From a virus, in IMG/VR virus record IMGVR_UViG_3300029266_002412, positions 1-50,409 of that record: 50,409 bases of DNA; one strand, written 5' to 3'. Of the stretch, positions 4,432-27,321 are shown one piece after another (positions within the stretch are counted from its first letter, which is position 1; each line of letters begins with the position of its first letter). The notes beneath the pieces were generated by a model. It worked only from the letters and a program-made list of their open reading frames with translations. It made no database searches and was not told the origin of the DNA. Position numbers and translations under genes: made by a program.

Positions 4432-4435
4432 ATAT

Positions 4436-4462
4436 CTAATATAACAAATTTTTATGAATTAA
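4436..4462 (-). promoter_or_regulatory. Shared phage promoter-like element (site J)
   Basis: Minus strand reads TTAATTCATAAAAATTTG followed by TTATATTAG, ending a few bases before the ATG of the GT9-like gene at 4431. It matches the consensus TATGTCA-N8-TTTGTTATATTAG seen before ten other genes. The site overlaps the end of the upstream epimerase gene. Confidence 0.55.
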
Positions 4463-5234
4463 GTAAATATTTTTTGTATTTTTTTGTGCCTATTTTTACA
4501 TCACAAAGCGGCTTCCAGCCTGGCATAAACTTTTTATTATCTGCTTGTGTAAAATACTGATACCAACTTGGTATTTTATCTTTGCTGTGGTATTCGTAAG
4601 GAATGTCCATGCCTTCTACTAGGCTTTGAAATGAAGCAGCTTTACCAGTACCAACATCAAAAACCCCTCTTTCTAGCGTTGCTGCATGTATGTTTGCTCT
4701 CACTACATCATCAACAAAAATAAAGTCTCTTTTTATATCACCAGGGAATAACTTAAACTTCTTTGCTTTATAAGCTTGGTATGCGATTGATGCCATCTTG
4801 CCTTTGTTTTCTTCACCAGGCCCATAGACATTGAAATATCTAAGAGCTACAAACTTTTTACAAGCTTTCAATCCATATTCTTCTGCCAATAACTTTGACC
4901 AACCATATATGTTAGTAGGTATACCGTTTCCTGTTCCATAATTTGCTGCTGAGCTTGAGTAAACAACTTTTACATCATATTTTCTTGCTAAATCAAATAT
5001 AATCTTACTTGAATTATAATTACACTCTAACATCTCGTTACAATCTTGAAGTTCTGTATCGGATATTGCTCCTACGTGAAATATAACGTCACACTGCTTT
5101 ATTATAGCTTCTATATCTTTATAGTTTACATCATCGTTCCTTTCTATACAGTTAACGTGATATCCTTTTGATTTCAATGCTTTTAATAAGTTTGAACCTA
5201 TAAATCCTTTATGCCCTGTTAGTAATGCTCTCAT
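4452..5234 (-). CDS. hldD: ADP-heptose 6-epimerase-like NAD-dependent sugar epimerase
   Basis: I use the ATG at 5234 (MRALLTGHKGFIGSNLL), which overlaps the preceding stop as ATGA and places the GxxGFIG Rossmann loop at the very N terminus; an in-frame ATG at 5255 would add seven residues. An extended-SDR YxxxK appears as YGWSKLLAEEYG. ALRYFNVYGPGEENKGKMAS, RDFIFVDDVV and the late FTQADNKK closely follow HldD (family form NVYGPxExHKGxMAS ... YTQAD). HldD converts ADP-D-glycero- to ADP-L-glycero-D-manno-heptose. At 260 aa it is shorter than E. coli HldD (310). The adjacent HldE-type genes and GT9 transferase support the assignment. Confidence 0.85.
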   Translation of the reverse strand: MRALLTGHKGFIGSNLLKALKSKGYHVNCIERNDDVNYKDIEAIIKQCDVIFHVGAISDTELQDCNEMLECNYNSSKIIFDLARKYDVKVVYSSSAANYGTGNGIPTNIYGWSKLLAEEYGLKACKKFVALRYFNVYGPGEENKGKMASIAYQAYKAKKFKLFPGDIKRDFIFVDDVVRANIHAATLERGVFDVGTGKAASFQSLVEGMDIPYEYHSKDKIPSWYQYFTQADNKKFMPGWKPLCDVKIGTKKYKKYLLNS

Positions 5235-5932
5235 ATTCCTTTTATTATCTTCCATCGTTTTTTATCCAATATCATTTGCTCTAATTTTGATTTAACACCA
5301 CCTTCGAAAATTCCAGCCCCACCGTAGTGTATTGCATGAGACATAAATCTGTTAGCACTGCTGTTCCATTCTTCTGAAAACATTGTCATATGATTCCACT
5401 TATAAGATAGTTCGTGTACATCATATCCGTACTTGTTTATTAAATAGCCCATGTGAACATCATCATAACCAAATCCTGTCCAGTATTCTCCATTTATCGT
5501 TTCATATATGTTACTGTGACACTTTGACGTAAGAAAAAAAGCTGAATCCATATAGCCTTCACTCCAACCTACGTTTCCCCACTTTGATTGAGCTTGCTGC
5601 ATGCAATGCTGTCTAGCTAACTTCCTTGTGCCTTTATCTTCATAGACAGTTGCAATGCTATCATAAGGCACTATGTTAAAGATATTAGGACAGTCTGGTG
5701 CAAGTAAAACATCTGAATCTATATGAAGTATTCTATCGTATTTTTCATGTAATTCTTTATGTTTAAATATTCTATAATGCCATTTTCCGTCACCATCATT
5801 ACAGTCTGATTTGTGACTCATCACTTTAAATTCTGCTCCAACCTTTTTAGCGTATTCCTGTATTATTGGATGAGTAATATCTGTCCAATCTTTTATGCCT
5901 TCATCGGCACGAGTCGTAATTAGTAGTTTCAT
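5231..5932 (-). CDS. GT-A-fold glycosyltransferase, GT8-like
   Basis: A 233-residue protein with LHEKYDRILHIDSDVLLAPD near residue 70: the DSD is the DxD motif that binds the divalent metal and nucleotide sugar in GT-A enzymes. Upstream lies KWHYRIFKHKELHEKY, and a later GFGYDDVHMGYLINKYGY resembles the acceptor-side segment of GT8- or galactosyltransferase-like proteins. No signal peptide or membrane segment is present, so a cytoplasmic enzyme is expected. It is coupled by four-base overlaps to both the epimerase and the Gfo/Idh/MocA gene. Donor and acceptor cannot be read from sequence. Confidence 0.75.
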   Translation of the reverse strand: MKLLITTRADEGIKDWTDITHPIIQEYAKKVGAEFKVMSHKSDCNDGDGKWHYRIFKHKELHEKYDRILHIDSDVLLAPDCPNIFNIVPYDSIATVYEDKGTRKLARQHCMQQAQSKWGNVGWSEGYMDSAFFLTSKCHSNIYETINGEYWTGFGYDDVHMGYLINKYGYDVHELSYKWNHMTMFSEEWNSSANRFMSHAIHYGGAGIFEGGVKSKLEQMILDKKRWKIIKGI

Positions 5933-6861
5933 TTTATTATTCTGTCCATAAACTTTAGTCGTGATATTGTATTTAATTCTTTTTTGTAAAGATCTCTTGT
6001 GTTAGCTGATATGAAAAATCTAATCATACTTTCAAATTGATCTGATTTATCTATCTCAAAATACTCTGTACTTCCATTCTGTATGATGTGTATTGGATTA
6101 GTGCAGTCAGGTGTTCTAGAAAATACTCTTTCTGCTTTCATTGTTTCGTATTCACTTGATATTGTTATTTCATTTCTGTATGCCTGGCCGAAGCCAAAAT
6201 TAATAACTGCAGTAGAATCAGGATAAGCCATCATTATAGTACCTTTTTCTACAACTTCGTCTTCTATAAAATTATAATAGCAATCTTCGTAGCTTTTACC
6301 TAGTATTCTTTGTACAAAACTTAAAGGATATATAAGTGAATCGTGTATAGAGCCACCGCCTAAAGCTTTTTTGTATCTAATATCGTCTTTGTCTTCAAAA
6401 TAAGGAAAGTTAAATGTTGCATCTACATATTTTACACTGCCCATGCTTTCCAACAAAATGTCTATTTTCTTTTGTACAGGATGGAATTCGTACATCAAAG
6501 CCTCCATACATTTTAAATTTCTATTTTCTGCAATGTTAAATAGCTCTATTGCATCAGGTGCATTTGTTGTAAATGTCTTTTCCATAAGCAGATGCTTGCC
6601 GGAAAGTAGCACTTTCTTTCCCCATTCGTAATGTAAGCCTGGTGGCAATGAAACGTATATCATATCAACGTCACTTGCTAAAAGCTCTCCATAAGTATAT
6701 GGGTTTGTATGATATTCAAACCCCCAGCCAATTGCTTTGTTTATATCTCTAGAAGCAACACCAGATAGTTCAACTCCTTCTATTTTTTTTATTGCAGGTA
6801 TAACGCACCTTTTAGCTATTGACGAACAACCTAATATTCCTATTTTCATTTTTTTATACAT
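5929..6861 (-). CDS. Gfo/Idh/MocA-family NAD(P)-dependent oxidoreductase
   Basis: MKIGILGCSSIAKRCVIPAI is the N-terminal GxGxxA-like Rossmann loop; VYVSLPPGLHYEWGKK and HLLMEKTFTTN give the conserved EKP-type catalytic lysine region (here EKT). ALMYEFHPV is the family's YxxRxxP-like segment. Two starts are possible: ATG at 6861 (MYKKMKIG), used here, or ATG at 6849 directly before KIGILG. In deoxysugar pathways this family includes the 3-ketoreductases that act after NDP-hexose 2,3-dehydratase. A dehydratase of that type is encoded immediately upstream, so reduction of an unstable 3,4-diketo sugar to a 2,6-dideoxy sugar is the most coherent role, by inference. Confidence 0.83.
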   Translation of the reverse strand: MYKKMKIGILGCSSIAKRCVIPAIKKIEGVELSGVASRDINKAIGWGFEYHTNPYTYGELLASDVDMIYVSLPPGLHYEWGKKVLLSGKHLLMEKTFTTNAPDAIELFNIAENRNLKCMEALMYEFHPVQKKIDILLESMGSVKYVDATFNFPYFEDKDDIRYKKALGGGSIHDSLIYPLSFVQRILGKSYEDCYYNFIEDEVVEKGTIMMAYPDSTAVINFGFGQAYRNEITISSEYETMKAERVFSRTPDCTNPIHIIQNGSTEYFEIDKSDQFESMIRFFISANTRDLYKKELNTISRLKFMDRIIK

Positions 6862-7609
6862 GAGCTATAATGCTTCTTAAACAATGACCAACCCAAGCAT
6901 CTTGCTTGCAGCATTCTTTTATTTGATGTAAACTCATCCAGATAAAGTTTTCATTAACAATATCTACTTCTTGTGTTTCGTCAACCTCAACTATCATGTT
7001 TAGATTTCTTTTGTTATACAACCTTCCGCCGTCTTCAGCCAACCATTTCTTATAATGAACCTTGCCTACTTCATCGCCTTGAAAAAAGTTAAGGTAGTTA
7101 GGCACATTGCCTAAATGAGCTGCCTTTATGTTGCTGAATGTTGCCTGTAAAGTAGGGCTAATCTGTACCATGTTAGGATTGCCAGGTTCGCATTTAGCTT
7201 CAACCAAATAATGAGGTACACCATCAAACCTTTTTCTTAGCACTCCTAATATGCCGCCGTCCCAACCTGTCTGCTTTATTATAGGCTGGTCCCATCCACC
7301 TTTACATTCTCTTATATCAGTTTCGACTCTTAAGCCTAATATAGAGAAAAACTCTCCACTTTCATGGTCTATGCTTCCTTCGTCAATATTCCATTTTCTA
7401 CATTCACTTAATGGGATTTCTCTAACTGTCATCTCCTTCTTGTTAACGACACCTTGATACCACCATTGTATTTCTTGGAATGTATGCAATGTAGACCAGT
7501 CTTTTAATCCTTCAAAGTTAAATTCAAGTTCATCTGAATAGCATTCTATTCCTAAGTTTTTAACGCTGTTTTTATATTCTAAAAACTTTTCTTTATAATC
7601 GTTTTTCAT
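6854..7609 (-). CDS. NDP-hexose 2,3-dehydratase-like protein, half-length
   Basis: A 251-residue protein resembling one repeat of NDP-hexose 2,3-dehydratases (EvaA, SpnO, TylX3 type). Visible signatures are GGWDQPIIKQ, VPHYLVEAKCEPGNPN and VQISPTLQATFSNIKA; the EPGN and SPTxQAT motifs are the most diagnostic. Family members are usually about 450-480 aa with two similar halves, so this is a single-unit version that may dimerise to rebuild the site; that is inference. The reaction removes water across C2-C3 of a 4-keto-6-deoxyhexose. The neighbouring Gfo/Idh/MocA, DegT and 4,6-dehydratase genes match the expected pathway. It overlaps the next gene by eight bases. Confidence 0.83.
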   Translation of the reverse strand: MKNDYKEKFLEYKNSVKNLGIECYSDELEFNFEGLKDWSTLHTFQEIQWWYQGVVNKKEMTVREIPLSECRKWNIDEGSIDHESGEFFSILGLRVETDIRECKGGWDQPIIKQTGWDGGILGVLRKRFDGVPHYLVEAKCEPGNPNMVQISPTLQATFSNIKAAHLGNVPNYLNFFQGDEVGKVHYKKWLAEDGGRLYNKRNLNMIVEVDETQEVDIVNENFIWMSLHQIKECCKQDAWVGHCLRSIIAHV

Positions 7610-8520
7610 AGTTTTTTTGCTTCGCTTATAACGTCATTAATATCTATTTTATTACACCCAGCAGGATTTCTTTCTACAAACATAACTTTAGAATTTTTAT
7701 TTATAGGTGTTACTGAAGAAGGATTTTTATCGTGGCCATACATCCAATACGTTTCTAGTGTTATACCTGGATGTTGGTATGCTCCCATGATCCAAACAGG
7801 GCCTGTGCTTGCAGCAATATAAAATTCTGATGCTAGTGCTGCTTTTATCTGTTGAAAGAAAGACATATATGTAAGTTTTTTATAATTTTTTGAATCATGC
7901 AATCTAGGTTCGCTGTCCATACCATAATGAAATACTGTATAGCCGTCAGCTATTAATTTTGTTATCAACGAATTCCACCATTTTTCTGAAGGACATCTGC
8001 CAACTTCTTTACCGGCTCCTGTAAAAGGCCAGATTGCAATATTTTTATTAAAATAATCTAAGTTTATATTATTATTTTTACTATATGTACCTTGAATCTG
8101 ATTTTCAAATCCAACATCGAACCATTTTTCTAACTTGGGCTTCATTTCTTCGTCTGATAGATAGTCTTTCATGTCATATATTCCGTGCATATGTGCAGTT
8201 TCTTCTACAAGATTGTAATTATTAAACCAATCTTTGCTAGTATGCTTATCATTTGCAGCATCGTCTACTACTATATCACATTGAGATATTAATTTCTTAT
8301 CATAGTCACCTAGCTGTTCACTACTCCATCCATCAGTTATTTTTATTCTATCAATTAAGGGATGGTTGAAAAATATAGGCGCAATGAATGAAACTTTTTT
8401 CTCTATAAGCCAGTATTTATAACTACCTGGGTACTTTCTTTCAAAATATAATAACGTAGGGAGTGCACAGATTGAATCGCCAACTAAGCCTCCCATACAA
8501 GTCCAAATTTTTTTATTCAC
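7606..8520 (-). CDS. GT9-like glycosyltransferase (heptosyltransferase family)
   Basis: A 304-residue protein beginning KIWTCMGGLVGDSICALPTLLYF, the GxxGDxxxxLP N-terminal motif of ADP-heptose:LPS heptosyltransferases. The C-terminal domain has IAIWPFTGAGKEVGRCP, typical of GT9 donor-binding strands, then ALASEFYIAASTGPVWIMGA, equivalent to the family's ...DSGxxHLA... loop with the usual His replaced by Trp. This may shift donor or reduce activity. It is one of two GT9-like genes in the cluster and overlaps its neighbours by 4-8 bases. ADP-heptose is the expected donor, but other activated sugars made by this cluster are possible. Confidence 0.75.
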   Translation of the reverse strand: MNKKIWTCMGGLVGDSICALPTLLYFERKYPGSYKYWLIEKKVSFIAPIFFNHPLIDRIKITDGWSSEQLGDYDKKLISQCDIVVDDAANDKHTSKDWFNNYNLVEETAHMHGIYDMKDYLSDEEMKPKLEKWFDVGFENQIQGTYSKNNNINLDYFNKNIAIWPFTGAGKEVGRCPSEKWWNSLITKLIADGYTVFHYGMDSEPRLHDSKNYKKLTYMSFFQQIKAALASEFYIAASTGPVWIMGAYQHPGITLETYWMYGHDKNPSSVTPINKNSKVMFVERNPAGCNKIDINDVISEAKKL

Positions 8521-9151
8521 GGTTTACAGTCTCACAATCTTTAAACAAATCAAAGCTTCTTAAATCAGGATAATAAGGTTCGTTTTCAAATGAATCCTCA
8601 TTAGGTATATCTTTCTTAAATCTAGGGTAATTCGACATAAGAGTTAAACCTCTTGCTGCTTGCTCAGGTGTCATATATGCATTCCAACCTATAGTCTTTA
8701 TATTATCTTCGTGCATATATACTTCACCTCTTCCTTCATATCTTGCTCGCTTTGCAAAGTCTACAAGATTTTGATCATCAGTAATAATCATGCCTCCTTT
8801 GCCTATAGGTAAGTGCTTTTTAATATGAAAAGAAAGACACATTATAGAATCTTTTATATACATGTTTGATGTAAGTCTTTTTGCAGCGTCATAAAGCGGA
8901 TAAGGTTCAAGCTGGTATATACCTTCCCATTTATAATCTCTAAACTTTACAGACCCACCTGCGTGGATTATAGATTGCGGTACTGATAGGTAAGTTCGTG
9001 GTGGTATTGTTACCTCCTTTACTTTTAAATACTTTGCAGCAATCATTATCGCGTCAGTACAGCTGTCTGTAGCTATAGCATATTTAGAACCACAGTAATC
9101 TGCAATGTTTTCTTCAAACATTCTTACTATTTTATACGGGTTGTGTATCAT
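8513..9151 (-). CDS. DegT/DnrJ/EryC1/StrS-type sugar aminotransferase, short form
   Basis: A 212-residue protein with the N-terminal PLP domain of sugar aminotransferases: SKYAIATDSCTDAIMIAAKY (usual form ...GTdAL...), LYDAAKRLTS with the PLP-binding Asp-Ala, and SFHIKKHLPIGKGGMIITDD with the internal Schiff-base lysine and following GGxxxT. YEGRGEVY and YMTPEQAARG continue the fold. Full-length members are 370-400 aa, so the C-terminal small domain is missing or replaced by about 35 acidic residues. Compact forms like this are common in phages but may be inactive alone. Together with the 4,6-dehydratase and 2,3-dehydratase, an amino or dideoxy sugar product is suggested. Confidence 0.8.
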   Translation of the reverse strand: MIHNPYKIVRMFEENIADYCGSKYAIATDSCTDAIMIAAKYLKVKEVTIPPRTYLSVPQSIIHAGGSVKFRDYKWEGIYQLEPYPLYDAAKRLTSNMYIKDSIMCLSFHIKKHLPIGKGGMIITDDQNLVDFAKRARYEGRGEVYMHEDNIKTIGWNAYMTPEQAARGLTLMSNYPRFKKDIPNEDSFENEPYYPDLRSFDLFKDCETVNRE

Positions 9152-9362
9152 TATTTTCTTCCGGGAATACTTCTATACATAAAACATTTTCATCGTTAAC
9201 CATTATCATAGTTCCATCATCACATTCAAATTTAGAAAACTGGCCTTGTTTAAGACTGTCAGTTCTTATACCATGAAAAGTTCTTTTAACGCCTCCTACA
9301 AAATGTATTATCTGAGTTACGTACTTGCCTTTTTCTATTATTGTTGACTTTAAATTTATCAT
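9132..9362 (-). CDS. Small unknown protein, 76 aa
   Basis: A 76-residue beta-rich protein, MINLKSTIIEKGKYVTQIIH through CDDGTMIMVNDENVLCIEVF, ending EENNDTQPV. Alternating hydrophobic strands and the late VNDENVLCIEVFPE look like a small beta barrel or sandwich; no catalytic motif is visible. It lies between the 4,6-dehydratase and the aminotransferase, overlapping the former by four bases and the latter by 20, so it is translated with the sugar pathway. Many T4-like marine phages carry a similar-sized conserved hypothetical near structural genes, but I cannot assign a family. Confidence 0.65.
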   Translation of the reverse strand: MINLKSTIIEKGKYVTQIIHFVGGVKRTFHGIRTDSLKQGQFSKFECDDGTMIMVNDENVLCIEVFPEENNDTQPV

Positions 9363-10330
9363 GATAATTTTTCAACCCAGTAGTTTAACAAATCATTCAT
9401 AGTTTTTTCTATAGATATTTTAGGTTCCCAACCTGTATGTTCTTTTAGTAAGCTTGAATCTCCTACCTGTACTTGTATATCTATTTCTCTATAGTAAGGC
9501 TTGTATATTTCTTGCTTTATATCTTCATAAGGTATACCCGACGCTTTAATTAAGCAGTCTGTATAGTATTGCATTTTCTGGATTTCATCACCACAAACAT
9601 TATAGACTTTACCATTACTTTTTTCTGTCATCATCAAAAGATAATATGCATTAACGCAATCTCTTACATCTATAACAACTCTTTCAGTTTCAAGATTACC
9701 TATCTTCAAAACCTTGTCTTGTAAACCTAATTTCATTTTTGCAATCTGGTAAGCATCAGAGCTAATACTAAATATCTTACCTCGTCTTTCACCTGTATGG
9801 CTGAATGCTCTTGTTACAAATCCATTCAACTTCTTGTTTGCAAATCTTTCTTGAAGGTATATATCAATAGCAGCTTTAGAAGCACCATAAGGATTTGCTG
9901 GCAATATCTTGCCATCTGTATGTAATTTGGTGCCGTCACACGTATCACCATACACTTCCGATGTACTACAGAACATTAGCTTTGTTTCTGTGTTCTCTAA
10001 CAATGTTATTATATTCATAGTAGCTGTAACATTATCATTCCAAGTCATTATCGGGTCTGTAAAGCTTGTTGGTGGGTGACTTTGAGCAGCTAAGTGAAAT
10101 ACACCATCAAAGTTTTGTGAAAGCACTTTTTCTACTCCCATATAATCTTTTAAATCTGCATAGTGGAATTGTATTTTCTCTATTTCTTCAACAGACATAA
10201 TATCTACCAAATCCATTTCTCTACCATTAGCAGTTCTTATAATACCATGAACCTCGTGCCCTTCTTTTAACAATAGCTTTGCTAAATGAGGACCTGCAAA
10301 ACCTGTTATTCCTGTTACTAAAAATTTCAT
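9359..10330 (-). CDS. gmd: GDP-mannose 4,6-dehydratase/4-reductase-like SDR enzyme
   Basis: A 323-residue extended SDR: MKFLVTGITGFAGPHLAKLL is the NAD(P)-binding GxxGxxG, FHLAAQSHPPTSF the AAQSHV-like loop of GMD, MFCSTSEVYGD and NPYGASKAAIDIY the S...YxxxK triad, and FVTRAFSHTGERRG the family's RxFNHxGPRRG substrate loop. The length fits GMD/RMD enzymes. Expected reaction: GDP-D-mannose to GDP-4-keto-6-deoxymannose, or the subsequent 4-reduction; sequence alone does not separate the two. A good Shine-Dalgarno (AAGGAGA) and a promoter-like element lie upstream. This would be the entry step for the deoxysugar genes downstream on the same transcript. Confidence 0.85.
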   Translation of the reverse strand: MKFLVTGITGFAGPHLAKLLLKEGHEVHGIIRTANGREMDLVDIMSVEEIEKIQFHYADLKDYMGVEKVLSQNFDGVFHLAAQSHPPTSFTDPIMTWNDNVTATMNIITLLENTETKLMFCSTSEVYGDTCDGTKLHTDGKILPANPYGASKAAIDIYLQERFANKKLNGFVTRAFSHTGERRGKIFSISSDAYQIAKMKLGLQDKVLKIGNLETERVVIDVRDCVNAYYLLMMTEKSNGKVYNVCGDEIQKMQYYTDCLIKASGIPYEDIKQEIYKPYYREIDIQVQVGDSSLLKEHTGWEPKISIEKTMNDLLNYWVEKLS

Positions 10331-10358
10331 ATTCTTTCTCCTTTTTAATTTGTATATT

Positions 10359-10384
10359 ATAATATAAGCATTTTTCTTGACATA
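10359..10384 (-). promoter_or_regulatory. Shared phage promoter-like element (site H)
   Basis: Minus strand reads TTATGTCAAGAAAAATG then CTTATATTAT, about 30 bases before the GMD-like start at 10330. It matches TATGTCA-N8-TTTGTTATATTAG except at TTTG (ATGC), and it occupies the only gap in this part of the cluster. Confidence 0.5.
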
Positions 10385-10390
10385 AAAAAA

Positions 10391-10996
10391 TTATACTGTA
10401 TCTATGTACTTAATTTTTGATTTTTTATTTTTTAGTTCGCTGAAGTATTTCTCTCCAACCCACCAATCTTCCCAAGGTTCCCATATACTATTACCTTTGT
10501 TGTCATATTTTTCTGTACCATCTGTAAGTACGTCTTCAAACAACATCTTATATCCTGAAGCTTCAAGTATTTTTATAGAATCTTTCTTTCTTGCATCTGT
10601 AACTTCTGAATCTGCATATGAATCGTGTTCAAATGTCATAAAATCAAATGTATAGCCATTAGAGATTAAGAGCTCTAGACAAGGTATCGAAGCATCATCA
10701 ACATCAAGCGATATATAGTCGAAGTGTTTTACATTTGATTTAGCATCTAAAATTTCTATAAAACTCTGTACAGTAACGTCTGCTTTTATGCATTCGTTTC
10801 GTCTATCTGATTTGTTAAATAGATCTATCCATCTCTGTTGAAAATCTACTGATATACCTTTCCACCCTAACCACTCTAATGCTGCTGTGTTATTTCCTTC
10901 AAAAGGGTGGTGGCTACCTAGATCTAAATAACATCCTCTGCCTCCAATTAGTTTATGTGCAAACTTATCTTGAAATTCTTTAGCGTAATATTGCAT
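10391..10996 (-). CDS. FkbM-like SAM-dependent methyltransferase
   Basis: A 201-residue protein with GRGCYLDLGSHHPFEGNNTA, the glycine-rich SAM-binding motif I of FkbM-family methyltransferases (family form: ...vDiGAhxGxxS...), then GWKGISVDFQQ (acidic end of strand beta-2) and DYISLDVDDASIPCLELL, the conserved catalytic/SAM-proximal segment (usually ...D.E..E...L). FkbM enzymes O-methylate sugars or polyketides. Located among glycosyltransferases, it is likely to cap or decorate the glycan this cluster makes. It overlaps the upstream glycosyltransferase by 17 bases. Acceptor unknown. Confidence 0.8.
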   Translation of the reverse strand: MQYYAKEFQDKFAHKLIGGRGCYLDLGSHHPFEGNNTAALEWLGWKGISVDFQQRWIDLFNKSDRRNECIKADVTVQSFIEILDAKSNVKHFDYISLDVDDASIPCLELLISNGYTFDFMTFEHDSYADSEVTDARKKDSIKILEASGYKMLFEDVLTDGTEKYDNKGNSIWEPWEDWWVGEKYFSELKNKKSKIKYIDTV

Positions 10997-11801
10997 TCGC
11001 CCACTCCGTTCTTGTTAAATTAGTTACTTTACTTAATCCTCTATTAGCAATTGTATCTCGAGTATAACTTCTGCTTAGATAGAATTCTATTTTATCTTGC
11101 AAATCTTCTATGTCCTTATATATTACCAAGTCTTCTCCATCAACTAACCCTGTAAGTTCTCTACCGTGCCAGTCATCTGTAAGTAAAAAACCTCCAGCTG
11201 CAAGTACTTTATATATTCTATCAGAAGCACAGTTATCTGTGCATATATTAAGATTTATTTTAGTCTTACCTACCTCGATTGAATGTTGCAACCCGTATGC
11301 TGATGATATTATATTTACATTTTCTAAGCGATCTAGCATACTGCTTCTGTTACCATAGACATTACCTATGAATGAAATATCGTATTGTTTTTTTACGTTT
11401 TGAACAATATCAACTGACTCGTCATATCCTTCACATACGTAATAGCTTTCCTTGTTATATTTCTTAGCTAGCTCTAATGTCTTAGGTTTGTCAAAAAATG
11501 ATTTATCACTGTAATATGTTTTCATAGCCATTTCAGATGTAAATGTTTGAGCAGGATCCATAAACCAATATATTATTTTTTTATTGTTTTTCTTCAACTC
11601 CTTCATTGTATATTCTGAAACGCCATTTCCTTTTGCAATTAGAATGATGTCATAGTCTTTCTTTTCCTGAAGTTTTAAATTGAAATTATTTTCTGATCTG
11701 TAAGAAAATTCTTCTACATCATGACCCAAGCCTTTAAGCGAATCTCTCTGAGAATTGTTTGTTGAGCCTTCTGTGAATACACCTATGAACAATATTTTCA
11801 T
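10980..11801 (-). CDS. CgeB-like/GT-B glycosyltransferase
   Basis: A 273-residue GT-B-like protein: MKILFIGVFTEGSTNNSQR opens the acceptor domain, KKIIYWFMDPAQTF resembles the hinge strand of CgeB/YkvP proteins, and YDISFIGNVYGNRSSMLDRL followed by INLNICTDNCASDRIYKVLA and AGGFLLTDDWHGRE gives the C-terminal donor domain (family form: ...R.fEa.a.G...lt......). CgeB-like proteins are glycosyltransferases found in spore and phage glycosylation loci. It overlaps both neighbours. No membrane segment is present. Donor and acceptor are unreadable. Confidence 0.75.
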   Translation of the reverse strand: MKILFIGVFTEGSTNNSQRDSLKGLGHDVEEFSYRSENNFNLKLQEKKDYDIILIAKGNGVSEYTMKELKKNNKKIIYWFMDPAQTFTSEMAMKTYYSDKSFFDKPKTLELAKKYNKESYYVCEGYDESVDIVQNVKKQYDISFIGNVYGNRSSMLDRLENVNIISSAYGLQHSIEVGKTKINLNICTDNCASDRIYKVLAAGGFLLTDDWHGRELTGLVDGEDLVIYKDIEDLQDKIEFYLSRSYTRDTIANRGLSKVTNLTRTEWANAILR

Positions 11802-12619
11802 ATTTCTGAATATATTCTTTTTAGTGTTTCTTCTACCTTTATTTCTAAAAAAGATATAAGTTCAATTCCTTTATATTTTCCAAACCATTCTTCGTATGTA
11901 CAACCTACTCTATTATCAGTCTTTACTTTTAAGCCTAGCATTCTCGCTTCTAAAACTAATCTGCAGCAAGATTCGAATGCATGAGAAAAAAACACGATTC
12001 CTTGATATTTAGAAATGGTTTCTATAAGTTCCTTCCATTGACAGTTTTTAACATAATCATAAGGTATTGCTTGAGTCTCACAAAGTTGTATTGCTTTATT
12101 GCTTCTCTTACCTGGAACTATGCACCATTTAGAATCTTTATTTTCTTTATACATTTTTCTTATATGGTCGAATTGATCTTGTGAAAACTGAGTACAACCT
12201 AGCGTTTCGATATTTTCTATATCTAGATGCATGTTCATTATCTCTGCCTGTTTATGAGTAAGACAGAATACCTTTTTCGCATGAGAGTAAAATGATTTAT
12301 TAACAACTTTTGATTGAGGTGCAATAAAGCCATCATACATAGCTGTGTTTCTAGTATCAACGTACTTCTGATCACGCTCGATTATTATATATGTTGCTGA
12401 TTCCTGAAACCACAGCTTAGATTCTTCACTAAGTCCTGCAAAGTTAGAAATGATAAAAACATCAGCCTTATGTATATTCGGGCTAAACGTTTGACTTTTG
12501 ACAGTTTTCAAATTAACGCCTTTTTCTTTCAGATATTTTATAACTACTCCATCTGATAGCTCTGCACCTCCTATTATTTCATCTTCAAAAAAGTCTGATA
12601 TGTATATTATGTTCTTCAT
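11798..12619 (-). CDS. Glycosyltransferase, GT4-like (short)
   Basis: A 273-residue protein opening MKNIIYISDFFEDEIIGGAELSD, the GGxE loop typical of GT4 acceptor domains. Mid-chain VFCLTHKQAEIMNMHLDI matches the hinge helix region, and IVFFSHAFESCCRLVLEARMLGLKV contains an E...E-like donor site (family form E-G-x-P..E-A-x-A-x-G), here FESCCRLVLEARMLG. It is shorter than usual GT4 enzymes (about 350-400). It overlaps the CgeB-like gene by four bases, so the two are coupled and may act on consecutive sugars. Donor unknown. Confidence 0.75.
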   Translation of the reverse strand: MKNIIYISDFFEDEIIGGAELSDGVVIKYLKEKGVNLKTVKSQTFSPNIHKADVFIISNFAGLSEESKLWFQESATYIIIERDQKYVDTRNTAMYDGFIAPQSKVVNKSFYSHAKKVFCLTHKQAEIMNMHLDIENIETLGCTQFSQDQFDHIRKMYKENKDSKWCIVPGKRSNKAIQLCETQAIPYDYVKNCQWKELIETISKYQGIVFFSHAFESCCRLVLEARMLGLKVKTDNRVGCTYEEWFGKYKGIELISFLEIKVEETLKRIYSEI

Positions 12620-12624
12620 GTTTG

Positions 12625-13071
12625 TTATCTTTTAATTATATCGTCGTCAAAATCATAATCGATGAGTTGTACCAGTCCCATCTTATTAAGAAATAACGTT
12701 CTGTAACCATTATTGTAAATTCTTTTCATATCTGATCTTAATGTACCTATATAGAATCTCATAGAAGATTGCTCCATTACAAGCTTTGGAATATCCAGAG
12801 CTCGCTTTTTATATCTAGGTATTTCTCTAATTCCAGTGTCTCTTGCAAGAGCATTGAAGTGTGTAGTAGAAAATTCATTTAGATTTAATACGTGTGTCAC
12901 GCCTCTAAATAAAGGATTCAATATTAAAAACATGTAGTTCTTTTTCTCACCTTCTCTGTTTTGGTACAAATTAGATACAACCATACCTTTCTGTAAATCT
13001 TTTTTAGGTATAATCAAACGTGAATTCATTTTCATCAAGTGTTGATTGTAGTAATTTGTGCTAGGTATCAT
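12625..13071 (-). CDS. Unknown phage protein, 148 aa
   Basis: A 148-residue protein with an N-terminal segment MIPSTNYYNQHLMKMNSRLI followed by KNYMFLILNPLFRGVTHVLN and a basic C-terminal half (RFYIGTLRSDMKRIYNNGYR). LNPLFRGVTHVLNLNEFS reads like conserved hypothetical proteins beside structural genes of marine T4-like phages, where some are called DNA-end or head-tail proteins. I cannot confirm that and make no functional claim. It sits between glycosyltransferase genes but shares no sugar-binding motif, suggesting it was inherited with the island rather than acting in it. Confidence 0.65.
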   Translation of the reverse strand: MIPSTNYYNQHLMKMNSRLIIPKKDLQKGMVVSNLYQNREGEKKNYMFLILNPLFRGVTHVLNLNEFSTTHFNALARDTGIREIPRYKKRALDIPKLVMEQSSMRFYIGTLRSDMKRIYNNGYRTLFLNKMGLVQLIDYDFDDDIIKR

Positions 13072-13550
13072 TATATATCGCCTAATGCAAAACCTTTAAC
13101 TTTCTTACAAGCCGCAAGGTATTCTACAAAAAACTCAGCCTTTGACATATCTACCTTAGATTCTATATCTGTGCCTTCCATTATATCATTGACACCTTCT
13201 GCTACTGGTGCATAGCACCATTTTATTTTTTCGTTACCTACAACTTCATCACCACTATGCAATGCAACTTTACCAGCAGGAAAAACAAAGCATTCTTTGG
13301 TCTGTATTGTTGCTGGGTACCAATATGATTCGCCATCGTCATATCTTAATGTTTTAACTATATCTGGCATTGAAGATTCATATTCCTCAATGTTAAAGTC
13401 CGGATGCTTCTTGTAATTTAATGGGAATTCGTTTGTATACATACCTGAGCTCAAGTCCATTCTTGAAACACCTGACTTTTCATCAAATTCTTGCAGTACC
13501 ATGTCTTTTCCTGTTATCGGACTCTTCGTCCATTCTTCATTATTATTCAT
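13071..13550 (-). CDS. Unknown phage protein, 159 aa
   Basis: A 159-residue acidic protein: EEWTKSPITGKDMVLQEFDE at the N terminus, RYDDGESYWYPATIQTKECF in the middle and SKAEFFVEYLAACKKVKGFA at the end. The N-terminal SPITGKDMVL has the look of a zinc-less ribbon or a small binding domain, but the cysteines are absent. No catalytic signature is seen. Its one-base overlap with the 148-aa gene and eight-base overlap with the GT4 gene show it is part of the same transcript. Proteins of this type accompany marine T4-like phage structural genes; function unknown. Confidence 0.65.
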   Translation of the reverse strand: MNNNEEWTKSPITGKDMVLQEFDEKSGVSRMDLSSGMYTNEFPLNYKKHPDFNIEEYESSMPDIVKTLRYDDGESYWYPATIQTKECFVFPAGKVALHSGDEVVGNEKIKWCYAPVAEGVNDIMEGTDIESKVDMSKAEFFVEYLAACKKVKGFALGDI

Positions 13551-14874
13551 ATGTTTGTAGCTCTTCTAGTTTAGGGATTTCAAATTCAGTACTAAACGAT
13601 GGTAAATATCTTTCTAGTATATCACCAAAGCTTTCTGTCATCTTTTCAAGTGAAAAGTTAACCTTCATGTACTGCGATTGTTTTCTTGTTTTTTCTAAAT
13701 GTTTTTTGTAGTTTTTATGTACGTCGTTCATCACACTAGCTGCAAACTGATAGTTTATGTAAAACCAATTTGATTCAGCAACTATTACTTCTTCCCATAC
13801 AACTGAAGGGTGAACTTGTCTTAACTCACCTTCCATAAGAATACCGTGTTCTGATAGAAAATCTACGTGTCCTGACCAACCTGGAGCAATTACTGGTTTT
13901 CCTGTTAATGAAAATTCAGCAAGAGGTCTACCATATCCTTCACCATGTGTAAAGCTTACCATAGCTTTTATTTTTGAATGGTTGTAAAGTGAATTCATTT
14001 CCTTATCAGTTAGATCTCCCCATACTATATATACATTAGGAACTCTTTTGTTTGCTTTAGCAAAATTATTTCTTAGGTCACTTATTTTCTTTTTAAGTAT
14101 TATTTCTTCTGGTACAGAAAAACCTATACCTGTTTTAATAACTAATGCAGGTTGGTTTCTAGAGGAAAGCTTTGTAAAAGTAGATAAGAACGTATGTATT
14201 GTTCCACCTACATCTTTTCTATCGTGAGTAAACTCTCCGTTCATCCAATGGCCACACAAGATAAAGCAAAAGTCTTCTTCTATAGAATCCAAAGTTTCAG
14301 CAACTGATTTTTCTATTTTTGATTTCTTATTGTAAACTTCAATATCCACACCTTCAAACAAAACTTCAATTGGTTTTGTGTTAGCTAGTGTTTCTACTAT
14401 TTTCTGTGTGTTCTGGTCTATCTTGTCGTAAGTGCATGTAAATGCTCTTGCAGAATGATTTGAAGGTACAATATTCATGTCCATTCTGTTCATTCCTTCT
14501 AACCACTGAGGTGAAACTCTGTCAGTCTCTATCCCTGCTGTAATTCCAATGTTATATTTACCTACAGCTTGGAATTCGTTAGGAACAGTAACCTGCATCC
14601 ATATATCTGGCTGGTTAGATATTTCTTGATTTGCTGTAGTTATGTCTAATATGTCTTTGTTTTCTTTTCTTGTTAATTCTGTACGAGGGCAAGTACCCCA
14701 TCTCTGATCCAAGACTTTTATATTAAACTTGTCTAATGCAATTAAACTTCTTATTAAATCTCTTGAGTGATTTCCATAGCCACTTCTACTAGATGCAGGA
14801 CAGCTAATTATTATTGTTGGTTTATTCTGATTCATATTATAGTACTCCTGTTGGATATATTGGTTCTGGTTCAT
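13543..14874 (-). CDS. GT4-family glycosyltransferase
   Basis: A 443-residue glycosyltransferase group 1 protein. SSRSGYGNHSRDLIRSL is the GxG acceptor-side loop; MNIVPSNHSARAF is the hinge helix; FCFILCGHWMNGEFTHDRKD begins the donor domain; and AMVSFTHGEGYGRPLAEFSL contains the EGxxxxxAE donor motif (HGEGYGRPLAE), followed by GKPVIAPGWSGHVDFL. These match GT4 retaining transferases closely. The protein is full length. It overlaps the next GT4 gene by 38 bases and is probably cytoplasmic. The donor sugar is not readable, but a GDP- or ADP-linked sugar made by the island is plausible. Confidence 0.88.
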   Translation of the reverse strand: MNQNQYIQQEYYNMNQNKPTIIISCPASSRSGYGNHSRDLIRSLIALDKFNIKVLDQRWGTCPRTELTRKENKDILDITTANQEISNQPDIWMQVTVPNEFQAVGKYNIGITAGIETDRVSPQWLEGMNRMDMNIVPSNHSARAFTCTYDKIDQNTQKIVETLANTKPIEVLFEGVDIEVYNKKSKIEKSVAETLDSIEEDFCFILCGHWMNGEFTHDRKDVGGTIHTFLSTFTKLSSRNQPALVIKTGIGFSVPEEIILKKKISDLRNNFAKANKRVPNVYIVWGDLTDKEMNSLYNHSKIKAMVSFTHGEGYGRPLAEFSLTGKPVIAPGWSGHVDFLSEHGILMEGELRQVHPSVVWEEVIVAESNWFYINYQFAASVMNDVHKNYKKHLEKTRKQSQYMKVNFSLEKMTESFGDILERYLPSFSTEFEIPKLEELQTYE

Positions 14875-16246
14875 TCGTGTTTATTAATTTAAAAGACTTC
14901 ATTGGTTTCCAAGTTTCAAATAATGATTCAAAAGCTTTTATTACTTTATCACACATACCTTCTTTATTGAATCCGTTTTCTATTGCCCAATTTCTTCCTT
15001 CAAGTCCCTTTGCTTTTCTCTTGTCTCTACCCATATCATACCAATACTTAATTCCTTTTTCAATATCATCTATTGTTGGTCTTGAGTCGTAAATGTATGG
15101 TGTAACTGGTGATCCTTGTATGCTCTGGTTAGGCCATAACGGATAAGTCCACGATCCGTGATCTTTTGATATCTTACCAGTTGAATTGCTTGGTACTTCT
15201 GCTGTAAAGTGTTTTACGCTAAGTTCTTCGCCATTTACTTTAAATCCTAGTTGATCTTGCAGCCCTCCACACACAGTTGCTATAGTAGGTGTTCCAGCCA
15301 TCATACCTTCCATGTGTGACAACCCAAACCCTTCTGCTGAAGATGGATTGCAAATTACATCTGCTATGTTATATAGTACATTTAATTTTTCATATGGAAG
15401 CTTTGCTGTGCTAAATATAACTTTAAGACCTGGATATAATTTAGTTGATACAGCCTGAAGGTCAGTTCCATGTTCGTCTACAATATCAGTGTGCATTAAT
15501 AGACATACTTTAGTCTTTTGCTCTTCGCTAAGCTTAGTCCAAAACTGTCCAAAAGCCTGTATTAAATCAGAACACCCTTTTCTTCTAATATTTCTACTAT
15601 TAAAAAAGCAAATATATTCAACGTCCTGATCTCCAAATAAAGCTGTTTGGGTACCTATTACTTCAGGATGTACATCGTCTAAAGGGAAGTACTTTTTATC
15701 ATCTATACCATGTTGAACATAATGTAAATCTACATCTTCAACTCTTGGTGAACGCTGACATACGTGTTTATTTATATTGTATGTCTGCTTTGATATTCCC
15801 ATTAAAAGATCGCACGATTCGTAAAATGGTTCATTCCAATGAGGGAATGGAAGATCATCCCATATATTATAATATGATATTGGCGTATGCTGTCTTAATT
15901 CGTGTGCCATTTCATATAGCCAGCCCCAAAATCTAGGATCTGTAAAATGCATGATAGCATCTGGTTTTTCGATATTAATAACATCTCTTAATATATCTGG
16001 GTTTCCATATCCAGATACAGGTAATACTTTAATATAACCATCTGAAACTCCTGATTCTTTTATTGTGTCTTGTTGCTCTGAAAGATCTACAAAGCCTTTT
16101 CCTTCTTCAGGATGCTTTATAGCGCCACCGATCTGAACCCAATCATATTTGTGTAATGTTCCCATTACAATTTCCTTTGACATCGTACCTACACCTGAGT
16201 GAAGTCTAATATCATCTCCTAATAATAGTATTTTCTTTTTTGCCAT
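14837..16246 (-). CDS. GT4-family glycosyltransferase
   Basis: A 469-residue GT4 enzyme beginning MAKKKILLLGDDIRLHSGVG, with a SGVGTMSKEIV acceptor loop, and a C-terminal donor motif VICNPSSAEGFGLSHMEGMMAGTP (the usual PSxxEGFGLxxxEaMAxGxP). YICFFNSRNIRRKGCSDLIQ is the typical start of the donor domain with its RKG. It is the first large gene of the glycosyltransferase island and shares 35 bases with the ribbon-helix-helix-like gene upstream. The close pair of GT4 genes suggests two consecutive transfers on the same acceptor. Confidence 0.88.
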   Translation of the reverse strand: MAKKKILLLGDDIRLHSGVGTMSKEIVMGTLHKYDWVQIGGAIKHPEEGKGFVDLSEQQDTIKESGVSDGYIKVLPVSGYGNPDILRDVINIEKPDAIMHFTDPRFWGWLYEMAHELRQHTPISYYNIWDDLPFPHWNEPFYESCDLLMGISKQTYNINKHVCQRSPRVEDVDLHYVQHGIDDKKYFPLDDVHPEVIGTQTALFGDQDVEYICFFNSRNIRRKGCSDLIQAFGQFWTKLSEEQKTKVCLLMHTDIVDEHGTDLQAVSTKLYPGLKVIFSTAKLPYEKLNVLYNIADVICNPSSAEGFGLSHMEGMMAGTPTIATVCGGLQDQLGFKVNGEELSVKHFTAEVPSNSTGKISKDHGSWTYPLWPNQSIQGSPVTPYIYDSRPTIDDIEKGIKYWYDMGRDKRKAKGLEGRNWAIENGFNKEGMCDKVIKAFESLFETWKPMKSFKLINTNEPEPIYPTGVL

Positions 16247-17826: not shown

Positions 17827-18114
17827 TTATTTGGTGGTTATTTTTGAATTATTTTTTATTAACTTGTCTAGGTATTGCTTTGCTTTAAGTAAATCTTCCA
17901 TACCATTTTTATGTCTCCATCTTGTAACATATTTTATTATGTTTCCTTCAAAGAAGTCAAGGCCTTGAGAGTGGGCATATTCCCACATCTCAATTCCCTT
18001 AGTATAATGTGCAGGATGCTTTACAATATCATCTTTAACCGTAACTACTTTCTCAGCAGCTGTAGATGTATTCAGTGCATTTGCTCTTACATTTGCCAAT
18101 GTATTATTAACCAC
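17827..18114 (-). CDS. DUF3310-like protein
   Basis: The C-terminal half, HPAHYTKGIEMWEYAHSQG then FFEGNIIKYVTRWRHKNGME and KAKQYLDKLI, is the DUF3310 signature (family form: HPxHY...GxExIdvi...F..GNaiKYl.R...Kg....DLkKA..Yl). I use the GTG at 18114, which overlaps the stop of the upstream gene and follows AAAGGA; another GTG at 18156 would add 14 residues inside that gene. The N-terminal 40 residues are a polar linker. DUF3310 proteins are widespread in phages and have been linked to nucleotide metabolism without a settled function. It belongs to a small-gene run after groEL. Confidence 0.85.
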   Translation of the reverse strand: MVNNTLANVRANALNTSTAAEKVVTVKDDIVKHPAHYTKGIEMWEYAHSQGLDFFEGNIIKYVTRWRHKNGMEDLLKAKQYLDKLIKNNSKITTK

Positions 18115-18355
18115 TTGGCTGATCCTTTGGTAAAAATCCTTTATTAATATGTCCACATTCAGTGCACCTGTATATCTGTATAGGTATAAGAGTTTCTTTT
18201 CCTGTTGGTGACATCACTGCAGAAAGCTGTTTAAACATGAAAGCTGGTTCGAACGTTTGGCATTCGCATTTTTCACACAACATATCTTCTAAGTCATTTG
18301 GATTAATATTCAACTGCTGCTGCTGTGGTTGGTTTAAGTTTATTTCTTTTCCCAT
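18107..18355 (-). CDS. Zinc-ribbon-like small protein, 82 aa
   Basis: An 82-residue protein with MLCEKCECQTFEPAF and IQIYRCTECGHINKGFLP, two CxxC pairs separated by about 30 residues: the spacing of a zinc ribbon. The N terminus (LNQPQQQQLNINPND) is glutamine-rich and probably disordered. Similar small ribbons in T4-like phages are annotated only as conserved hypothetical. It may bind nucleic acid or a host polymerase subunit, but no direct evidence exists. It lies between the T9SS-like secreted protein and DUF3310 on one transcript. Confidence 0.78.
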   Translation of the reverse strand: MGKEINLNQPQQQQLNINPNDLEDMLCEKCECQTFEPAFMFKQLSAVMSPTGKETLIPIQIYRCTECGHINKGFLPKDQPSG

Positions 18356-18873
18356 TATTTTACTCTTATATATTTTTTGTTATTTCTAATGTACATTGTT
18401 CCAATAGGAGCTTGTTTTAGCTCTCTACCTTGTAAGTCATATACTATATTGTACATGCCTTCGTTTTTAATTAGTTCTTCAATACCTGTAGTATTACCTT
18501 GTGAATTATATAATACCCATGTGTATGTATTCTGATCAAAAACTAACGAATCGCATTTAGTACATACTTCCATTATACCTGCTTCCCAAAGCATAATGTC
18601 ATAACATACCTTTAGTGTGTCTGTTGTTAATACCTGTCCGAAATAAGCATACTGTCCATCTGCTGAATAACATGTATTTGAATTACATACTTGCCATAAT
18701 ACCAACATAGAATCTGGATTATGTACCATTGCAGATGTATCTAGGCCTATGCTTAATCCTTGACTTTGATCTGTCCAATATGTTATTGAATCACAGCAGA
18801 AATATAATGTTGATTGCTGTGCTTGTGTTTGTAGTCCAAGCGAGACTAATAATATTATTAAATACTTTTTCAT
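18355..18873 (-). CDS. Secreted protein with T9SS-like C-terminal sorting domain
   Basis: A 172-residue protein with a signal peptide (MKKYLIILLVSLGLQTQAQ, cleavage probably near residue 18) and six or more cysteines in the mature part (FCCDSITYW, VCNSNTCYS, EVCTKCDS). The last 40 residues, NIVYDLQGRELKQAPIGTMY then IRNNKKYIRVK, fit the type A sorting domain of Bacteroidota type IX secretion substrates (family form: ..vydlxGrxv......G.Yi.....k..k). T9SS cargo is carried across the outer membrane and often anchored there. I infer export to the host surface, with superinfection exclusion or envelope modification possible. It follows groEL directly, with no sugar-binding or catalytic motif. Confidence 0.8.
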   Translation of the reverse strand: MKKYLIILLVSLGLQTQAQQSTLYFCCDSITYWTDQSQGLSIGLDTSAMVHNPDSMLVLWQVCNSNTCYSADGQYAYFGQVLTTDTLKVCYDIMLWEAGIMEVCTKCDSLVFDQNTYTWVLYNSQGNTTGIEELIKNEGMYNIVYDLQGRELKQAPIGTMYIRNNKKYIRVK

Positions 18874-18874
18874 A

Positions 18875-20810
<1,936 letters not shown>

Positions 20811-25834: not shown

Positions 25835-26318
25835 GAGTCCAGGGCTTTAAACCATTCTCCATAAATCTATGAAGAGATGTTATGTGAACATGTATTTTTC
25901 CAAACTTATATTCAGGCCAGCAAGTTATGAGTGCAGACATAATCATCATATAAGTCTGATTATCATAGCAGAAATTGTTATCAAAGTTTTGACTTCTTAC
26001 AAACACATGTATATCTATCTTTCCATCTCTTGCTATTGCCTGTATTGTAGAAAGACAAGCTGTTAAATATGGATTGTCTTGATATGTTTTATGAAGCACA
26101 CATTGCCTAGACTCTATACCTTTTGTTTCGCATATCTGTAAAATGTCTTCTATGATCTCGTTGCGTTCGATTTCATCGCCTTCTAAAGCAGGAGGTATTT
26201 TTTTACCCATAAATCCTGAATCAACCTCTACATCATAATTAAAATTGTATACTTCTCTATATGTGGAACTGCCTTGTGAGCTTAGCAGGCTTTCTATTTT
26301 CTGTGTTATTTTCTTCAT
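25827..26318 (-). CDS. ThyA/dCMP-hydroxymethylase-family protein, short
   Basis: A 163-residue protein with the core motifs of the thymidylate synthase superfamily. NPYLTACLSTIQAIARDGK aligns with the PCHxxxQFxxxDGKL active-site segment, the catalytic Cys being C88 and the following His replaced by Leu. HVFVRSQNFDNNFCYDNQTY matches LxxRSxDxxxGxPxNxxxY, giving the phosphate-binding Arg-Ser and the conserved Asn. KIHVHITSLHRFMEN corresponds to the late GDxHxY segment. Canonical enzymes are about 260-310 aa; the N-terminal region is missing or very short. Substrates in this family are dUMP or dCMP with methylene folate. The reaction here, methylation or hydroxymethylation, cannot be settled. It overlaps the reductase by 62 bases. 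Confidence 0.72.
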   Translation of the reverse strand: MKKITQKIESLLSSQGSSTYREVYNFNYDVEVDSGFMGKKIPPALEGDEIERNEIIEDILQICETKGIESRQCVLHKTYQDNPYLTACLSTIQAIARDGKIDIHVFVRSQNFDNNFCYDNQTYMMIMSALITCWPEYKFGKIHVHITSLHRFMENGLKPWTHC

Positions 26319-27321
26319 AATGCTTTACTATCGATAAATATGTTTTTGTTATACCTTCTGCTGAATTCATTGCATCAGCAGGCAAATTGTAGTGCTGATA
26401 TAAATCATAAAAGTTTTTTGATTTTCCATTGTGTCTTGCAAGGTAGTCACCTTCTGCAATTATGTTTATGTGCTTGCTTAAATTATCACACCCTGTTACT
26501 TGCTGTATAAGATATAGATAGTTTTCAAATGCCATTGGTCTATCTTTACTTATTATAAAGTCTTTGCCCCAACCATTATCCATTAACAAAAGAGTAATAA
26601 ACATATCAGCAAAGTATTCATATCTCATATAGTCTTTTTCTATTTTAGGATCAAGCAGTACATCAAGTTTGCCATTTTCATTAAGTGGAGACAATGTATA
26701 AGGTATGTTGTTCTTACCACAATATACTTTTTCTGTTATCTTTCTTATCATAGATGAGTTGTCGAATGGTGCATCACCATAAATAAACACAGGTTTTATA
26801 ACCATCATTTTATCAATATCCATAGCCTGTTTTACAGCTAGTTCACCTGAGTATTTAGATAAACCATAAAGTGTTTTAGGATCTATTTTTGCAGTTTCAT
26901 CAAACTCACCATTGTTTTTCATGTACTCATCAGGATCAAATACTGCAGTAGTTGAAAAGTAAATAAGCTTACAGCCTACAGCGTTAGCTACGTTTATAAG
27001 ATTTTGAGTACTTACAATGTTAGAATTTACCGCCTCGTATGAAAAGTCATCACACTTATCTGTATTGACATAAGCAGCTGTATGTATTATAATGTCTTCT
27101 TCTGTTAGTTTTTTCGCTACAAGATCCAATACATCTGTATCAGTTACGTCAACCTCTTTGTCTTTTACAAGCTTTCCATTTAGATAGCTAAAGTCGTTTG
27201 TATATTTAGCTAGATCAGAATTGTCCATAATTTCAAATCTTTCTTGATTAGATTCTTTGATTGCTTTAATAATAGACGTTGCTAACATTCCACTTTCACC
27301 TGTTATAAATATTTTTCTCAT
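26257..27321 (-). CDS. RmlD-like NAD(P)-dependent sugar reductase/epimerase
   Basis: A 354-residue SDR: MRKIFITGESGMLATSIIKA is the GxxGxxG-type nucleotide loop; DIIIHTAAYVNTDKCD follows RmlD's N-AAYTxVDxAE; KLIYFSTTAVFDPDEY and KTLYGLSKYSGELAV give the S/T...YxxxK triad. VIKPVFIYGDAPFDNSSMI resembles the later RmlD segment. dTDP-4-dehydrorhamnose reductase acts on dTDP-4-keto-rhamnose; other family members act on GDP- or UDP-sugars. It is unusual here: it lies in the nucleotide block, away from the main sugar island. It is coupled to the kinase-like gene by ATGA and shares 62 bases with the ThyA-like gene. Confidence 0.8.
   Translation of the reverse strand: MRKIFITGESGMLATSIIKAIKESNQERFEIMDNSDLAKYTNDFSYLNGKLVKDKEVDVTDTDVLDLVAKKLTEEDIIIHTAAYVNTDKCDDFSYEAVNSNIVSTQNLINVANAVGCKLIYFSTTAVFDPDEYMKNNGEFDETAKIDPKTLYGLSKYSGELAVKQAMDIDKMMVIKPVFIYGDAPFDNSSMIRKITEKVYCGKNNIPYTLSPLNENGKLDVLLDPKIEKDYMRYEYFADMFITLLLMDNGWGKDFIISKDRPMAFENYLYLIQQVTGCDNLSKHINIIAEGDYLARHNGKSKNFYDLYQHYNLPADAMNSAEGITKTYLSIVKHYEENNTENRKPAKLTRQFHI

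Follow-up and report, generated by a model that had tools for sequence, protein, structure and literature searches.

The stretch of DNA analysed here, referred to as the window, is a virus record of 50,409 bases (IMGVR_UViG_3300029266_002412) which holds genes for UvsX, a DnaB-like helicase, a 5'-3' exonuclease, RNR and a PD-(D/E)XK exonuclease. A gene for a protein of 172 amino acids lies on its minus strand, exactly where a first, sequence-only reading had placed it. That reading named its neighbours as groEL and a zinc-ribbon gene: the former is confirmed by its Pfam match, while the latter is recognised by its CxxC motif only. The features of the locus are the following.

18355 to 18873, minus strand: whole gene, 172 amino acids, ATG start; an open reading frame with groEL on one side of the insertion and the CxxC gene on the other
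18820 to 18873, minus strand: predicted Sec/signal peptidase I signal peptide, residues 1-18, MKKYLIILLVSLGLQTQA, with Gln at +1 (sequence and modelled helix)
18487 to 18819, minus strand: mature domain and linker, residues 19-129, an Ig/FnIII-like all-beta sandwich with strands within residues 30-121 and 7 Cys (AlphaFold)
18358 to 18486, minus strand: predicted short T9SS C-terminal signal, residues 130-172, 43 amino acids (motifs, co-occurrence, profile)
18875 to 20515, minus strand: groEL, upstream flank of the insertion (PF00118, E 1.2e-64)
18107 to 18355, minus strand: CxxC..CxxC protein, downstream flank, zinc-ribbon-like from its motif alone (the match to Pfam Zn_ribbon_8 is non-significant at E 0.19)

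Elsewhere in the window, a sugar-nucleotide and glycosyltransferase cluster occupies 2568-16246 and 26257-27321, both on the minus strand, with a PfkB kinase, epimerases, a GFO/IDH/MocA oxidoreductase, a GDP-mannose dehydratase-like protein, an NDP-hexose 2,3-dehydratase (PF03559, E 8.8e-63) and several glycosyltransferases; it would fit a phage that changes surfaces, and it may serve another purpose. A UvdE-type UV endonuclease is encoded at 38416-39420 (minus strand; PF03851, E 2.2e-57), and a small membrane protein, MKQLTLAIVLFFAGQTLIWIQTNGQ..., at 39458-39802 (minus strand); by eye, the latter is like one that recurs in 17 of the 52 loci carrying a gene with the C-terminal tail discussed below.

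The signal peptide and the Cys-rich body that the sequence-only reading had proposed are both borne out. Cleavage is predicted at A18|Q19 (MKKYLIILLVSLGLQTQA|Q), Gln at +1 of the signal peptidase I site being the 'Q-rule' of Bacteroidota (PMC5837995). In the full-length AlphaFold model (172 residues, 44-row alignment, mean pLDDT 73) residues 3-18 form a helix, followed by an all-beta domain at residues 30-121, with pLDDT of about 82-93 over 31-120. Residues 125-141, with pLDDT below 50, make a disordered linker that spans the cleavage site predicted for the tail, and the tail itself, at pLDDT 50-62, ends in a hairpin with strands 159-163 and 166-170. Compared with the PDB, the body resembles generic FnIII/Ig-like chains (Z up to 8.8), which indicate no function, and a Foldseek search of the model against the PDB returned no significant match. 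A match of the window protein to ComS (E 0.0073) was dropped, as it was below the cut-off and covered residues 10-26 only, mostly signal peptide. Relatives of the gene are found in seven viral loci at 49-85% identity, and A0A218ML00, an uncharacterized protein of an uncultured virus in BFVD which bears no function annotation, belongs to the same family (45% identity, E 4.4e-13). Among cultured phages, neither the protein nor its tail has a meaningful relative.

The first reading assigned the C-terminus to the T9SS type A kind, a label that the curated models do not bear out. Pfam and NCBIfam found no sorting domain of the T9SS in the window gene, nor any in the eight aligned family members (the window protein and seven others), and TIGR04183 and PF18962, searched directly against the window record (G000), gave no match. 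Since these curated type A models miss the tail, we take it as a short-CTD variant rather than as a literal 'T9SS type A domain'. What it shares with TIGR04183 and PF18962 is the C-terminal position and motifs B, D and E, and related phages carry canonical copies on giant proteins; it differs in having 43 residues against 72-75 model positions and in lacking the YPNP start. When short and canonical tails are compared by profile the motifs do align, but the match is weak, with a probability of 12% and E 0.0024.

The nearest published system is that of Prevotella intermedia, for whose T9SS cargo Ye et al. (2025; PMC11969387) distinguish between long and short CTDs. The short CTDs measure 43-55 amino acids and have PT/GI as the consensus cleavage site, with Ile (+2) most conserved. 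Motifs B and D each contain an invariant Gly; motif B also has a Tyr and favours a basic residue, and motif E is basic. A three-stranded sheet is predicted, and cleavage was established for five of the short CTDs. In the window, the sequence of the tail is T|GIEEL...YDLQGRE...P-I-GTMYI-RNNKKYIRVK, in which we recognise motif B as YDLQGR, motif D as G-T-M-Y-I and motif E as the basic end NNKKYIRVK. Cleavage by PorU is predicted at T129|G130, then I131, G130-K172 making up 43 residues. The likeness to the short CTDs of that paper (PMC11969387) extends to the length, to T|GI with Ile at +2, to YxxxG[RK] and to the basic end, as well as to a predicted three-stranded sheet with cleavage in a flexible linker, which for the window comes from the model only. 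The two differ in motif D, which is GxxYI in most of the viral proteins as against GxY then Ile, and in that the window-type tail occurs in phages and Flavobacteriales. P. intermedia is the one organism with short CTDs that our literature search found, subscription papers being partly outside its reach.

These features hold across the viral tail proteins with a clear start, of which there are 62. All have motif B (Phe being allowed for Tyr) and [AS]Q within residues 13-34; the GxxYI spacing of motif D is present in 59 and G.YI in 4, and the first of these spacings also occurs in some bacterial tails (L206, L227, L232). A loose pattern for the cleavage site, [PT][TVLS][GSANT]I, fits 41 of the 62, with Val replacing Ile in L171, L180, L183-L185 and L187 among others. 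Modelled alone (42 rows), the tail becomes a small sheet with mean pLDDT 84, and about 94 over residues 150-169, the strands being short ones near 144-145 and 151-152, then 160-163 and 166-170; a fold search with a piece so small gave nothing useful. A profile made from Bacteroidales tails only, which had themselves been found with the phage-tail pattern, gives the window protein 44.3 bits (E 2.3e-13); the second-ranked of the 375 frames of the window has E 1.8, and the best of 2000 shuffles of the tail reaches 9.9 bits. A similar tail is also present on an arabinanase, PDB chain 4kca (E 3.8e-9).

When viral contigs were scanned with an alignment of the tail, 92 stretches were confirmed and the best 80 of them kept; in the viral loci retrieved, a tail HMM recognised 68 distinct proteins, with the tail C-terminal. 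The corresponding scan of bacterial genomes gave 88 confirmed stretches (the best 80 kept), almost all from Bacteroidota, the exceptions being, by title, one MAG contig labelled as archaeal and one labelled as Clostridia. All 90 bacterial matches to the tail HMM end within 6 residues of the C-terminus, and most of the proteins have a signal peptide by a crude test. Across the phylum, a profile search found the tail in 4 of 296 genomes, so that the tail, or its profile, is lineage-specific. A test of its link with secretion is thus best placed within one family, and we took the 251 genomes of the family of G013 (Prevotella sp. P2-180, which holds L219), with SprA as the marker of the translocon and GldM as that of the motor. 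The tail occurs in 177 of these genomes and SprA in 195: 173 have both, 4 the tail without SprA, 22 SprA without the tail and 52 neither (Fisher p 3e-31, with genomes treated as independent and their relatedness ignored). GldM is present in all four genomes that have the tail without SprA, and absent from all 12 that were checked among the 52 with neither. A T9SS marker therefore accompanies the tail in 177 of 177 tail-bearing genomes of the family. Outside this set, SprA was found in eight of ten tail-bearing genomes taken from named loci. The other two are G020, a small Flavobacteriales MAG of about 1 Mb that may be incomplete and shows neither SprA nor GldM, and G016, an archaeal-labelled MAG that shows no T9SS marker, its contig L205 having a viral look.

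Co-occurrence of this kind ties the tail to the T9SS, but falls short of proof of transport. It may be argued, from the failure of every curated sorting model, that the tail is no T9SS signal at all and that the protein is periplasmic, ending in a beta hairpin of a generic kind found on exported proteins in Bacteroidota. We hold this to be very improbable, given the strict co-occurrence within one family, the likeness to short CTDs whose cleavage is experimental, and the exchange of such a tail for a canonical CTD on Omp28, to which we return. Export through the T9SS is, for its part, well supported by computation. Of the earlier proposal that the phage uses the secretion system of its host, the idea thus stands, upheld by the co-occurrence, by host homologues and by a published short signal, while the wording 'type A' does not. 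Its premise that the T9SS exists only in Bacteroidota has to be widened, the system having been described across the Fibrobacteres-Chlorobi-Bacteroidetes superphylum (PMC7468147).

The host homologues belong to Flavobacteriales, which agrees with the clue to a Bacteroidota host that had been drawn from the sequence. In the order to which G012 belongs (a Flavobacteriales MAG, locus L273), relatives occur in 44 of 296 genomes; a check of 15 such genomes found SprA in 13 and GldM in the other two. In L288 (G747) the protein is 58% identical to that of the window over its whole length, and the locus looks chromosomal, between a transporter-like gene and, by eye, a thymidylate synthase-like gene. 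The same body with the same tail being present in Flavobacteriales at this identity, the gene is seen as host-derived. In a tree, the window protein falls within a clade of 17 rows (100/98) that includes L288; host and phage rows are mixed, and the starred branches force at least four changes of the phage label, on a tree made unreliable by its long branches. This tree left out L090, L167, L200, L202 and L204, as well as proteins of more than 200 amino acids, and took L292 and L293 by their second domains only. Exchange between hosts and phages, whichever its direction, is likely to have been repeated, as far as the sequences tell.

In phages, what usually comes immediately after groEL is the CxxC gene or some other gene, and among 80 groEL loci only L010 and L063 have a tail gene within the stretch retrieved. 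At the junction, L009, L025 and L012, relatives that lack the gene, read TAATG where the window reads TAATATG...AATAATG, a comparison that points to precise insertion after groEL. The same slot is occupied in other contigs, L003 (with the near-identical L004) and L006/L091. A host sequence misassembled into a viral contig would also account for a homologue in bacterial genomes, yet the recurrence of the gene at one groEL slot in these independent contigs, together with the phage replication genes of the window (UvsX, DnaB-like helicase, exonuclease, RNR), leaves hardly any room for such an artefact. Of 59 rows from viruses, 3 have the gene in the interval from groEL to the CxxC gene, and 11 have it after recA, mostly before hsp20. 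Such positions in replication and chaperone regions bear on whether the protein could be a component of the virion, its C-terminus serving particle assembly. Ig/FnIII-like beta-sandwich domains are common on phage particles, and the genes of this kind in the 79,962-base phage record G001 are, by eye, near tail-fibre-like genes; these positions, the signal peptide and the fact that the homologues are bacterial genes nevertheless make a structural role a distant prospect.

G001 also shows how the gene travels. Its DNA matches the window, over more than 250 bases, at 18342-18876 only, where identity reaches 86.6%, and just four other window proteins have relatives there, at 39-49% identity. So close a match in an otherwise distant phage indicates recent exchange between distant phages. 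Compared with L002 and L003, the whole gene has dN/dS of 0.14 and 0.24, respectively, and the body 0.11 and 0.22; these low values indicate purifying selection on the gene, the body included. We may ask whether the gene is a neutral passenger derived from the host, of no benefit to the phage, as its host origin and the empty groEL slot of most related loci would allow. Its dN/dS of 0.14-0.24, the 68 distinct tail proteins of the retrieved viral loci and the exchange between distant phages all speak against it, and we regard it as very unlikely.

The tail is not restricted to one body. Directly downstream of the window-gene relative in G001 (L002:4519-5157), beside this Cys-containing cargo gene, lies a gene for a TlpA/ResA-like thioredoxin protein (NF002854, E 5.8e-13) with a predicted signal peptide and the same short tail. 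The tail is also borne by Omp28-like proteins in L111 and L112 (PF11551, E 1e-20 and 8e-17), by a weakly Omp28-like one in L100, and by a 434-residue protein with a CGPC motif in L167. CxxC is kept in all five thioredoxin- and Omp28-type tail proteins, and four of the five adjoin a small Cys-containing tail protein. A search of cultured phages with the Omp28-like tail protein found nothing meaningfully related. The Omp28-like protein of the host locus L293 has a canonical domain, scored by TIGR04183 at 33.3 bits against a cut-off of 23, and its gene adjoins one that combines a phage-type body with the short tail. Omp28 has, then, a canonical tail in a host and a short tail in phages, and is, on this comparison of sequences, one type of body with two interchangeable tails. 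A body of the phage type (57% identical to L130) is also combined in hosts with a different tail, ...LLFYIYDNGEIEKNFIIK, at which C-terminus TIGR04183 is silent.

Canonical tails are found in phages as well. In 4 of 11 phage records searched, giants of 1151-1398 residues combine a signal peptide and 20-28 Cys-containing 'GCTD...NYNP..DDGSC' repeats with a tail detected by TIGR04183 (E down to 1e-15); they are encoded as follows.

L188:14698-18894: giant phage protein with canonical T9SS type A tail (signal peptide, repeats, TIGR04183)
L192:9191-12646: the same
L193:10127-13588: the same
L194:14155-17610: the same

The giant of L188 has no match in cultured phages. Directly after it, at 18891-20012 of G001 (L188:18891 onward), comes a gene for a protein of 373 residues with a signal peptide and, by eye, a barrel-like C-terminus, ...GVNYRVF; a scan of 370 of its residues gave no Pfam match. 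As a separate matter, the Flavobacteriales loci L289, L294-L298 and L300-L302 have a tail of yet another type, ...YIYDDGTVEKRIVIE, negative with TIGR04183 where scanned, in a group that includes a peptidyl-arginine-deiminase-like protein (PF04371, E 1.7e-86); this tail is possibly another unmodelled sorting signal.

The one relevant report of phage-encoded T9SS cargo that our search of the literature found, many subscription papers being outside it, is that on Cryophage (Bellas et al., 2020; PMC7468147). There too the phage encodes proteins with T9SS tails and is presumed to use the system of its host, the genes are variable and superinfection exclusion was suggested. In that single phage, type A domains are found on an endoglucanase, a GH39 protein and a PA14 protein, in what its authors call a unique occurrence (PMC7468147). 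The present case differs in its short tail, which the models miss, and in its bodies, which are of the small Ig-like, the TlpA-like or the Omp28-like kind; the tail occurs in 68 distinct proteins of the viral loci retrieved. As far as our searches show, the breadth of the phenomenon, the short tail and tail-swapping are new within the literature that they covered.

Taking these results together, we think it probable, with some assurance, that the window gene is a host-derived T9SS cargo in a phage of T9SS-bearing Flavobacteriales, and that its product behaves as follows. In the infected cell, Sec would carry the protein across the inner membrane, the signal peptide being removed at A18|Q19, and it would fold in the periplasm, probably with disulfides. 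The tail would then take it through the SprA/PorV translocon of the host, and the PorU sortase would cut the disordered linker at about T129|G130, the mature domain of 111 residues ending on host surface glycan or being released. The surface of the infected cell would thereby be altered in favour of the phage, the purpose being the least certain step of all. Phages that change the surface of their host commonly block superinfection, and the most likely course here is hindered adsorption (superinfection exclusion) or altered adhesion, a suggestion put forward tentatively, with the balance somewhat against it. Receptor masking and a remodelled surface, which the sequence-only reading named beside superinfection exclusion, are likewise no more than possibilities. 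Alternatively, the cargo might act as a decoy that occupies PorV, the translocon or PorU, and so lessens the export of host surface proteins such as phage receptors or adhesins. A small body with an intact signal would suit such a function, and several kinds of body sharing one tail would fit selection on the tail; yet the body too is under purifying selection (dN/dS 0.11 and 0.22), with its Cys pattern kept, and cargos of 1151-1398 residues would be costly for that role, so that we see it as an improbable option.

Returning to a cargo that acts at the surface, we may extend the proposal, more speculatively and with doubts that outweigh our confidence, to a portable surface-display kit. Phages of T9SS-bearing Bacteroidota would put the short tail on varied bodies (small Cys-containing Ig-like domains, thiol-disulfide enzymes, Omp28-like proteins) and canonical tails on repeat giants, and these would move among unrelated phages and slots. 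The outcome would be a disulfide-rich coat on the infected cell, coded by the phage. The thioredoxin-fold protein, a neighbour in 4 of 5 cases, would bring about the maturation or rearrangement of its Cys-rich partner.

The tested curated models, TIGR04183 and PF18962, do not see the short signal, and if the interpretation is true, such T9SS cargo is under-counted in viruses and in bacteria alike. Short T9SS signals would also extend beyond P. intermedia, and the tail would offer a small, naturally occurring tag with which to display proteins at the surface. Phages of Bacteroidota would then widely use the T9SS of their hosts by way of a short signal, and the remodelling of the host surface through phage-driven secretion becomes concretely testable.
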